NCBI GenBank assembly: GCA_017795005.1
Contig: CP051242.1
Location: 930,001-994,000, forward strand
Length of the DNA: 64,000 nt
From: Balneolaceae bacterium
GTDB taxonomy: Bacteria; Bacteroidota; Rhodothermia; Balneolales; Balneolaceae
Direction: 5' to 3'
The notes beneath the pieces were generated by a model. It was not told where the DNA came from, searched no databases, and saw nothing but the letters and a program-made list of their open reading frames with translations. Below, piece after piece: positions 44,147 through 48,048 of the stretch (its first letter is position 1; each line of letters starts with the position of its first letter). Made by a program: the position numbers and the translations under genes.

Positions 44147-45172
44147 CTATATTATGAAAGACTTTTTTAATGCGTCATTAATCTGCTCAAATTCAATTAA
44201 AAAGGCATCGTGACCATAAGGAGAGTTAATCTCTTCATAAACAGCATTAGGAATTAACTTTGCTAATTCTTTTTGCTCTGAGGTTGGATAGAGATTGTCT
44301 GAATCTATTCCCAGGATTAGAACAGGAATTGAGATATTGCCAAGTACTTCTTCAAAAGTTCCCCGTTCTCTTGAAACGTCGTGAGTGTCCATTGATTTAG
44401 TCAGGCGATCGTAGGTGAGTGCATCAAAACGATCCACCAGTTTTTTCCCCTGGTATTCCAGGTAAGATTCAACCTCAAAGACTTTTTTCTCTTTGTTAAA
44501 ATTTCGGTCAAATTTTTGTTGATAATTTTTGGGAGAGCGGTAGGTAATCATTGCCATTGCGCGGGCAGCTGACAGACCTTCGGAAGGGGGATAATCTTTT
44601 TCATAGAAGCCACCTTTCCATTTAAGATCAGCATACAATGCCATTCTTTGAGCATGACTTATCCCAATCGCCCATGGTGAATGAGATTTTCCCATCGCAG
44701 TTAAACAAGCACTTTTGATTCGATTATCCATAAGAATAAATTCAAGTCCAATCATCCCGCCATAAGACCCTCCAAGCACAAGTTCTATTCCTGTAATATC
44801 TAAATGGTCTAAAAGTTCTTGCTGAAAACGAACTACGTCCCTTACAGTGAACACAGGAAAATCACCTCTGTAAGGTTCCTGAGTATCTGGATTAATACTC
44901 CATGGATTTAATGAGCCATAGCAACTACCCGGAATGTTCATGCAAATCACAAAATGTTTATCCAGATTAACAGGGCTGCTTTTAGCAAAAAAACCAGAAA
45001 ACCAATCTTCAATATTCGAGTTACCGGTAAGGGCGTGAATAACCAGGATTACATTATCTTTTCGTTCATTTAGTGTTCCCCAGGTATGGTAGGCTACATT
45101 TGCCTCTTCGAATGTAAAACCAGATTCTGTTGAAAAGCTATGTGGAAATTTGTGTTTCTTAAGGTTGCTCAT
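44147..45172 (-). CDS. metX: homoserine O-acetyltransferase
   Basis: 341 residues, alpha/beta-hydrolase fold. Acetylates L-homoserine with acetyl-CoA, the entry step of methionine synthesis by direct sulfhydrylation. Motifs: AYHTWGTLN, VIHALTGNSN, nucleophile Ser136 in LVLGGSYGGMIGLEF, acid Asp in LILGIDSDNLYP, His in SPYGHDAFLIE. Substrate type (acetyl versus succinyl) follows family precedent and the neighbouring metY. It is downstream of metY and the OsmC-like gene on the same strand, with repeat-filled gaps between, so the SAM-I riboswitch at 47.6 kb may control it too. Confidence 0.93.
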   Translation of the reverse strand: MSNLKKHKFPHSFSTESGFTFEEANVAYHTWGTLNERKDNVILVIHALTGNSNIEDWFSGFFAKSSPVNLDKHFVICMNIPGSCYGSLNPWSINPDTQEPYRGDFPVFTVRDVVRFQQELLDHLDITGIELVLGGSYGGMIGLEFILMDNRIKSACLTAMGKSHSPWAIGISHAQRMALYADLKWKGGFYEKDYPPSEGLSAARAMAMITYRSPKNYQQKFDRNFNKEKKVFEVESYLEYQGKKLVDRFDALTYDRLTKSMDTHDVSRERGTFEEVLGNISIPVLILGIDSDNLYPTSEQKELAKLIPNAVYEEINSPYGHDAFLIEFEQINDALKKSFII

Positions 45173-45396: not shown

Positions 45397-45933
45397 CTAA
45401 CTTACATATACCACTTCCCCAGTTACTGGAACTGGATTAGAAATGATATCTAAAACCGGGCATCGATCGGTTGAAAAATCTTTCAAAAGCTGAAGTTTAG
45501 CCGGATTGGTTTCATCAGTAGAAATAACAGTTTTATATTTTACATTATTGAACCCAGGTCTTTTGTCCGAAAGATTGAAAAATCCCTGCAGGTCAAGGTC
45601 ACCCGATGCTTCTACTTTAATTGACTTAAGATCAATTCCAAGTTGACCGGCATAAGCTTTGATCACAATTTCCTGACAGGAAGCCAAAGCTCCAAGCACA
45701 TATTCAACTGGGTTTGGTGCTTCATTTTCTCCACCCAAACTTTCTGGTTCATCTACGATAAACTGAAACCCTCGAACATTGATCTCAGACCTGAAACCAC
45801 GATCCAGTTTTGAATCTACCGCGAAGGTAACATCCTTCGCTGAAGGATTATTCTTTACATGGTTGATTAAGTTTGATATGGTTTCATTTAGTTTTTGATC
45901 GATGCTGTTTATTTCTGTTGTTATAGTACTCAT
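45397..45933 (-). CDS. OsmC-family protein
   Basis: 178 residues with the OsmC/Ohr fold and both conserved cysteines: NPVEYVLGALASCQEIVIKAYA and FSTDRCPVLDIISNPVPV. OsmC and Ohr proteins reduce organic hydroperoxides through this cysteine pair; members encoded beside sulfur genes may act on other substrates. It lies between metY and metX on the same strand, which hints at a sulfur-metabolism role, but no reaction can be assigned. Confidence 0.88.
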   Translation of the reverse strand: MSTITTEINSIDQKLNETISNLINHVKNNPSAKDVTFAVDSKLDRGFRSEINVRGFQFIVDEPESLGGENEAPNPVEYVLGALASCQEIVIKAYAGQLGIDLKSIKVEASGDLDLQGFFNLSDKRPGFNNVKYKTVISTDETNPAKLQLLKDFSTDRCPVLDIISNPVPVTGEVVYVS

Positions 45934-46190: not shown

Positions 46191-47546
<1,356 letters not shown>

Positions 47547-47560
47547 TTAAAATTCATGTT

Positions 47561-47600
47561 AAAAAAAAGCCTTGTTCAGAAGATGAATCCGAACAAGGCT
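47561..47600 (-). terminator. SAM-I riboswitch expression-platform terminator
   Basis: Minus strand AGCCTTGTTC-13 nt-GAACAAGGCT followed by a run of T, ending 41 bp before the metY start. Its loop contains TCATCTT, complementary to AAGATGA in the 3' strand of the riboswitch P1 helix, so antiterminator and P1 are mutually exclusive. Confidence 0.92.
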
Positions 47601-47621
47601 GGTAACCAAAACTGTTTCGAA

Positions 47622-47741
47622 CTCATCTTTCCCAGTGCCGGCTTACTGAACACTGAGCAGGATGTAGCACCTTCCCCCAATTTTCATCGGGGCGGTTGCC
47701 AAGGTTTCACAGGACCTGATCCCTCCACCTTTCTTAATGAG
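47622..47741 (-). ncRNA. SAM-I (S-box) riboswitch aptamer
   Basis: Minus-strand RNA with the SAM-I core: CTCATTAAGAAAGGTGGAGG (5' P1 and P2 start), GGAGGGATCAGGTCCTGTGA, AAACCTTGGCAACC, AAGGTGCTACATCCTGC, and closing GGGAAAGATGAG. P1 pairs CTCAT with ATGAG. SAM binding stabilises P1 and permits the downstream terminator, switching metY off when SAM is plentiful. Confidence 0.95.
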
Positions 47742-47784
47742 AATGCAATTGTATGTTAAAGAACGTCTGAGATTTACTCCCAAC

Positions 47785-47826
47785 AAAAAAGCCCTTCTGA
47801 TATTGCATTCAAAAGGGCTTTTTTTG
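47785..47826 (-). terminator. first leader terminator (attenuator)
   Basis: Minus strand AAAAAAGCCCTT-16 nt-AAGGGCTTTTTT: a 12-bp stem plus T-tract. It lies between the Met/Cys leader ORF and the SAM-I aptamer. Its 5' arm (AAGCCC) can alternatively pair with GGGGCTT immediately after the leader ORF stop codon. Confidence 0.9.
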
Positions 47827-47855
47827 TTTTTACAAACTGGTTATACCTAAGCCCC

Positions 47856-47882
47856 TCAGGTGCACATCATGCACATACACAT
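47856..47882 (-). CDS. Met/Cys leader peptide MCMCMMCT
   Basis: Nine codons on the minus strand: ATG TGT ATG TGC ATG ATG TGC ACC TGA, giving M-C-M-C-M-M-C-T. Seven of eight residues are Met or Cys, the end products of the pathway downstream. Flanking segments are TAAGCCC (47895-47901) before the start and GGGGCTTA (47848-47855) directly after the stop. They can pair with each other, or the second can pair with the 5' arm of the terminator at 47785-47826. This is the layout of a classical ribosome-mediated attenuator. No strong Shine-Dalgarno sequence is seen, and translation is inferred, not shown. Confidence 0.65.
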   Translation of the reverse strand: MCMCMMCT

Positions 47883-47932
47883 GCAATTACATGCGGGCTT
47901 ACAAATAGTATGTTGGATTGAAAATTTCATCA

Positions 47933-47961
47933 CTTATAGCTTAAGGGAAGATGTTCATCAA
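47933..47961 (-). promoter_or_regulatory. candidate promoter of the metY leader
   Basis: Minus strand TTGATG (47956-47961), 17 bp, TATAAG (47933-47938). Predicted start of transcription near 47926, so the transcript includes both pairing segments, the leader ORF, both terminators and the SAM-I aptamer. Called by eye against the sigma70 consensus. Confidence 0.5.
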
Positions 47962-48048
47962 AACAAGAGCTGTTAGAAAAAAATTTAATCGTTTTAGGAT
48001 TAATGCTTTTATGTTGGTTTAAGTCCAATAATTTCAATACATGATTTT

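Follow-up and report, generated by a model that had tools for sequence, protein, structure and literature searches.

Trp-type attenuators are built from a leader ORF with codons for the amino acids of the pathway, a terminator and its antiterminator, and a stop codon that lies beside segment 2. Leaderless polycysteine ORFs of mycobacteria were reportedly described by Canestrari in 2020. The mycobacterial ilvB1 leader is an example of a ribosome-mediated attenuator (PMC13236596), and Cys leader ORFs have been described in Actinobacteria (PMC1262725), where no conserved terminator hairpin was seen in the mycobacterial cys leaders considered, and before cysS, as uORFC-8-2 (PMC8632094). The T-boxMet/SAM-I tandems place a T box (Met) before a SAM-I element in two examples, which gives the logic A AND NOT B, the reverse order being found in seven (PMC9481103). 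Three further papers (PMC2965389, PMC6230763 and PMC4239095) deal with other attenuators or with Met leaders and, in the parts available, describe no Met/Cys peptide.

The window, that is, the whole stretch of 64,000 nucleotides that was analysed, belongs to a genome of 3.75 Mb in a single contig and contains a metY gene whose nearest named relatives at the protein level, with 96% identity, come from Balneolaceae MAGs. The first-pass annotation had read the leader of this gene as a peptide attenuator stacked in front of a riboswitch, and the present analysis supports that reading: the metY leader is likely to be a ribosome-mediated attenuator that responds to Met and Cys, followed in series by a SAM-I riboswitch, a conclusion that is computed throughout and has no experiment behind it. 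All the elements that had been named could be located by sequence inspection on the minus strand before metY, and they are arranged as follows.

47961–47966, minus strand: −35-like element TTGTTT, from the sequence; its TTG is kept in relatives
47938–47943, minus strand: −10-like element TAAGCT, 17 nt from the −35-like element, its last base 7 nt before the ATG
47856–47930, minus strand: leader ORF MKFSIQHTICKPACNCMCMCMMCT followed by a stop, 24 codons, probably leaderless; open frame kept in 74 family leaders
47862–47885, minus strand: Met/Cys codon run CMCMCMMC, codons 16–23, from the sequence and the frame bias over 74 leaders
47895–47901, minus strand: segment 1, TAAGCCC, partner of segment 2 in the leader MFE
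47848–47857, minus strand: segment 2, GGGGCTTA (47855–47848); the feature extends into the stop codon and has either segment 1 or segment 3 as its partner
47785–47822, minus strand: terminator 1, with one arm at 47822–47809 (containing segment 3), a loop, the other arm at 47800–47787 and a T-run at 47790–47785
47758–47764, minus strand: GTTCTTT box, candidate boxA, conserved before metY-type aptamers; string also present in both rRNA leaders
47620–47743, minus strand: SAM-I riboswitch aptamer, RF00162, 74.6 bits
47616–47629, minus strand: P1 3' strand, forming antiterminator 2 with 47593–47580, duplex −19.4 kcal/mol
47560–47600, minus strand: terminator 2, from a mechanical scan of the window; counterpart in 73 of 74 leaders
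46191–47519, minus strand: metY, O-acetylhomoserine sulfhydrylase family, TIGR01326 at 681.7 bits (cutoff 495.1)
44147–45172, minus strand: metX-like homoserine O-acetyltransferase gene, NF001209 at 339.6 bits (cutoff 331); same strand as metY, operon membership not shown

The metX-like gene stayed below the cutoff of TIGR01392 in the profile search, and a gene for an OsmC-like protein (45397–45933, minus strand) lies between it and metY. With regard to the leader itself, the nine-codon ORF for MCMCMMCT that had been annotated is indeed present, with its ATG at 47882 and its stop codon TGA at 47858–47856, as part of a frame of 24 codons that opens at the ATG at 47930. As a consequence, segment 1 (47901–47895), which had been placed upstream of the ORF, exists as described and lies within it. 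The sigma70-like promoter was also found where it had been proposed, although on its own it is weak, matching 6 of 12 consensus bases in a manual count, and the mechanical scan of the window reported neither this promoter nor terminator 1. The case rests on conservation in relatives.

This conservation, which had been suggested as a check, was followed through a search for RF00162 in 92 genomes of the family, of which 82 matched, giving 104 sites that were each read with their surroundings. By the first downstream gene, 82 of these sites belong to metY operons, with metY itself in 45 and a gene for a CoA-binding domain (PF13380), which precedes metY in the named relatives, in 37. The other 22 precede a metH-like gene, whose homocysteine S-methyltransferase domain was tested in the copy of this genome. 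A Met/Cys ORF of 18–28 codons was observed at 74 of the 82 metY-operon sites and at none of the 22 metH-like sites, and a stricter automatic detector returned 72 and none, respectively. The set of 74 leaders used below includes two (from G012 and G035) that this detector misses and one (from G061) whose start was set by hand; a seventy-fifth pick, G000_L001, was dropped since it lies in another gene. That locus is the second SAM-I element of the genome (G000:C1:1962067-1962172), which precedes the metH-like homocysteine S-methyltransferase gene and has no Met/Cys ORF. Of the eight metY-operon sites that lack the ORF, six belong to genus g19 and the other two to G037 and G060. At the G060 site (L019, identical to L126), a promoter-like pair lies close to the SAM-I aptamer and both the ORF and terminator 1 are absent, a natural lack of the first layer. 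Nine genomes without SAM-I, when queried with MetY, returned distant relatives (29–45% identity) and two pieces at contig edges (75–76%), and therefore provide no evidence on leaders that lack SAM-I.

The composition of the leader ORFs points to the amino acids that would be sensed. Met and Cys make up 33% of the 1645 non-start codons of the 74 ORFs, and their excess over shuffles is significant in every leader (p<0.01 in 74/74). Summed over the leaders, Cys (311) and Met (229) are far the commonest residues, followed by Ile (133), and the Cys codons are TGT 214 times and TGC 97 times, with TGG found only twice. The geometry of the leader, with its stop codon adjoining segment 2, would answer any stall in the run, and the ORF could accordingly be imagined as a general translation sensor, in which any slowing of the ribosome leads to read-through and Met and Cys are not specifically read. 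This residue bias, together with the position of the ORF before metY and not before metH-like genes, makes such a sensor improbable. A sensor for one amino acid alone, either Cys or Met, with the codons of the other being incidental, is also unlikely, if less so; the proportions do shift, some leaders of another family of the order (f5) being mostly Cys (CCCMCC) and one mostly Met (MSMSMSMMSC). Against this stands the presence of both residues in all 74 family leaders, with at least two of each in 70.

The reading frame bears on another possibility, namely that the TGYATG repeats form a binding site for a protein or an RNA at the nucleotide level and are not used as codons. These repeats are near-identical in several genera, and the 15-mer TGYATGTGYATGTGY, present once in this genome, at the leader, has matches in 20 of the 89 family genomes searched, 15 of which, judged by coordinates, have it at the leader; the reversed pattern has six matches in all. 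Yet Met and Cys codons number 540 in frame, compared with 187 and 23 in the two alternative frames and 76 expected from shuffles, and in other families the amino acids are retained within different strings (such as CCMSCC and CCCMCC), which leaves a binding site of this kind scarcely credible. It also seems very improbable that the product is a functional small peptide, binding metals via Met and Cys for example, with the terminator merely limiting read-through. Strings of Met and Cys do resemble ligands of soft metals, but the order of the residues and their flanks differ between genera while the arrangement of stop codon, segment 2 and terminator is kept, and the ORF occurs at metY-type sites only. 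An ORF that reads Met and Cys together thus remains the preferred interpretation, its translation being an inference. Within the same ORFs, a string xATAT (47909–47914, minus strand, codons 6–8) is more than 90% conserved at several columns (A18, A20, T21, A22) of the 74 leaders, with variable flanks.

In 58 of the 74 leaders the best −10 element ends 6–8 nt before the start codon, and from this spacing it is inferred that the ORF probably has a leaderless start. The start site is unmapped. A transcription start downstream of 47856 would have refuted the first-pass annotation, and the conserved promoter places it upstream, near 47931, by inference only. A Shine-Dalgarno-like string was found in four of the 74 leaders; its lack in the others carries little weight, since members of the wider group often have no such string.

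The first layer further requires RNA structures that exclude each other. The leader of the window folds at −44.7 kcal/mol (z −4.26), a value equalled by none of 200 dinucleotide shuffles, with the pairings of segments 1 and 2 and of segments 3 and 4 in the MFE structure; when it is cut before the 3' arm of the terminator, it folds with segments 2 and 3 paired. Terminator 1, the 3:4 pairing, lies between the ORF and the aptamer in all 74 family leaders, and termination at 47785 is inferred from it. The alternative 2:3 pairing has a mean energy over the 74 leaders of −14.2 kcal/mol with the leader's own segments, −11.5 kcal/mol across genera and −7.4 kcal/mol after shuffling; it reaches p<0.05 in 69 leaders and misses in five, and the own pairing is better than the cross-genus mean in 71. 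Its variable positions show AU, GC, GU and UA pairs between genera. The compensatory changes derive from comparisons between genera, with a 9-nt partner picked by best match and hence biased towards pairing. Within genus g3 alone, no 2:3 pair was changed on both sides. The search for segment 2 covered only some 20 nt on each side of the stop codon. Within that range the best 9-mer starts from −12 to +4 nt relative to the end of the ORF, and its position close to the stop codon is in part a product of this restriction. The pick in G003 is probably not the true segment.

The 1:2 pairing is less general. While it forms in the MFE structure of the window and reaches p<0.05 against shuffles in 51 of the 74 leaders, it does not exceed cross-genus pairing in genera g11, g12, g15 and g17, and its claim to be a general device for keeping the leader OFF without translation was rejected. 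A helix joining the start codon to bases that follow the stop codon (ATGAAACGAA with TTCGTTTCAT) was likewise discarded as a universal feature, with p<0.05 in 29 of 74 leaders and in none of the three of the window's genus. In g3, two pairs of this helix are changed on both sides, a number that 155 of 500 shuffles equal, and none of the 500 reaches its covariation score. The alignment of the g11 clade misplaced the terminator arm and therefore yielded no pair counts, and alignments A1, A3 and A4 were also left out of them. Rfam also gave weak hits to the leader, sau-19 and Thr_leader among them, all well short of their cutoffs, and these were set aside.

According to the mechanism proposed here, a ribosome would start on the probably leaderless ORF as the RNA emerges and, when charged tRNA-Met or tRNA-Cys is short, would stall in the Met/Cys run, leaving segment 2 free to pair with segment 3 so that terminator 1 could not form. 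When both charged tRNAs are plentiful, the ribosome would reach the stop codon and cover segment 2, and transcription would end near 47785. The stalling is inferred, as is the resulting rise in read-through on Met or Cys limitation, for which there are no transcript, ribosome or starvation data. The scheme was modelled by masking one ribosome footprint and scoring the upstream pairing of the 5' arm of the terminator while its 3' arm is partly made. Over 74 models, the mean number of antiterminator pairs fell from 7.86 with the ribosome at the best Met/Cys codon to 2.65 with it at the stop codon, and was 5.34 without a ribosome; in the model of the window the antiterminator falls at codons 22–23. 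A ribosome at the stop codon left less than 60% of the best Met/Cys-stalled antiterminator in 66 models, and within this model the part of the original claim by which such a ribosome frees the terminator appears well supported. In ribosome-free RNA the antiterminator stayed at 60% or more of that value in 47 models, the window included, and fell below it in only 27; the modelled OFF state in the absence of translation is thus supported only in some lineages. For the window it is not established, since its ribosome-free RNA still favours the 2:3 pairing. In the full transcript of the window at equilibrium, the terminator wins at every ribosome position, which means that the switch must be kinetic.

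The second layer had been correctly recognised. The aptamer at 47743–47620 scores well above the gathering score of RF00162 (44.4 bits), and terminator 2 is accompanied by a switch in which the P1 3' strand pairs with the 5' arm and loop of the terminator. Terminator 2 was found in 73 of the 74 leaders, and 72 have an antiterminator duplex with an energy below −8 kcal/mol. By its sequence this layer is of the usual SAM-I OFF design, SAM binding being inferred, and it would act as an ordinary OFF switch. The inferred logic of the whole leader is that metY would be read when the charging of Met or Cys tRNA is low AND NOT when SAM is high.

Between the two layers lies the GTTCTTT box. GTTCTT occurs in the 45 nt that precede the aptamer at 78 of the 82 metY sites of the family and at one of the 22 metH-like sites, against a background of 29 in 2726 windows. 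It is similarly placed in 9/10 sites of family f2, 4/4 of f3, 1/1 of f4, 11/12 of f5 and 12/53 outside the order. In this genome GTTCTTTGA is present in both rRNA operons, 123 nt before the 16S gene and again about 440 nt after it, and the boxA of E. coli lies at corresponding places before and after 16S. It is thus proposed that the box is a boxA, a candidate identified by sequence and conservation and without data on NusB/NusE binding, which perhaps guards the long untranslated leader against Rho. The occurrence of boxA before non-rRNA genes has been reported elsewhere (PMC5725501), in a text whose available portion contains neither 'riboswitch' nor 'Bacteroid'.

Beyond the family, the search for RF00162 across the class (244 genomes) gave 80 further sites, from ten matched genomes of f2, four of f3, one of f4, 12 of 17 of f5 and, as part of the matches there, 53 from outside the order. 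The detector was positive in 4/10 sites of f2, 1/1 of f4 and 12/12 of f5; it failed in f3 (0/4), was positive in one of the 53 sites outside the order and was negative at all 28 loci sampled from the phylum's other classes, two of which loci (L278 and L287) carry a short ORF with four Met/Cys codons. By eye, further Met/Cys ORFs are seen in f2 (G092, G094 and G095), along with weaker ones in f3 (RSCMMLC). Among 19 leaders of f2 to f5 that were tested, 18 have the terminator and 12 a 2:3 pairing at p<0.05. The two-layer arrangement is found again in other families of the order. By eye, the start codon in f5 lies well downstream of the visible promoter, and a leaderless start is therefore not an order-wide feature. 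Four leaders of f2 (L210, L205, L207 and L211, from G092, G094, G095 and G096) have a Met/Cys ORF without terminator 1, as judged by eye; the ORF ends some 22 nt short of the aptamer, and the ORF start is able to pair with the bases immediately preceding the aptamer. Here the same parts are arranged differently. An order-wide leader in three parts can be put forward only tentatively, as a possibility that remains doubtful: a leaderless peptide would sense the charging of tRNA-Met and tRNA-Cys together, a boxA would serve to load Nus factors past terminator 1, and a SAM-I riboswitch would follow, so that one transcript would combine low charged Met/Cys tRNA AND NOT high SAM. If true, both a Met-codon leader peptide and a peptide attenuator placed in series with a metabolite riboswitch would be seen here for the first time, as far as the literature was searched.

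No description of a Met/Cys leader peptide joined to SAM-I was found in the open-licence PubMed Central literature searched. Nor did that literature show a described attenuator from this bacterial group, and neither the codon specificity of the leader nor its combination of two well-known types of switch was found there. As in trp-type attenuators, it has an ORF, pathway codons, a terminator with an antiterminator and a stop codon adjoining segment 2, and it differs from them in its specificity for Met and Cys, its probable leaderless start, the riboswitch in series and the variable protector helix 1:2. With the Cys leader ORFs, as far as the accessible parts of those papers allow, it has in common a short, Cys-containing ORF ahead of sulfur-related genes, the mycobacterial ORFs being leaderless; it departs from them in mixing in Met, in its clear intrinsic terminator, in its target metY and in the SAM-I element downstream. 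The Cys-only run of the mycobacterial leaderless polycysteine type is not matched, as Met is present in all 74 leaders. Compared with SAM-I riboswitches in general (RF00162), the leader has an aptamer over the cutoff and the terminator/antiterminator platform, and differs in that the aptamer is preceded by its own attenuator and the GTTCTTT box. No T-box match was obtained in the window at the gathering score, nor at E values up to 5 in 47560–48000. The T-boxMet/SAM-I tandem, from what is available of its description, likewise reads the charging of tRNA-Met first and SAM second, with the same logic, and the first sensor of the metY leader differs in being a translated leader peptide and not a T box. 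This suggests that the logic of the T-box/SAM-I tandem has been reached a second way, with the translating ribosome as the tRNA sensor.
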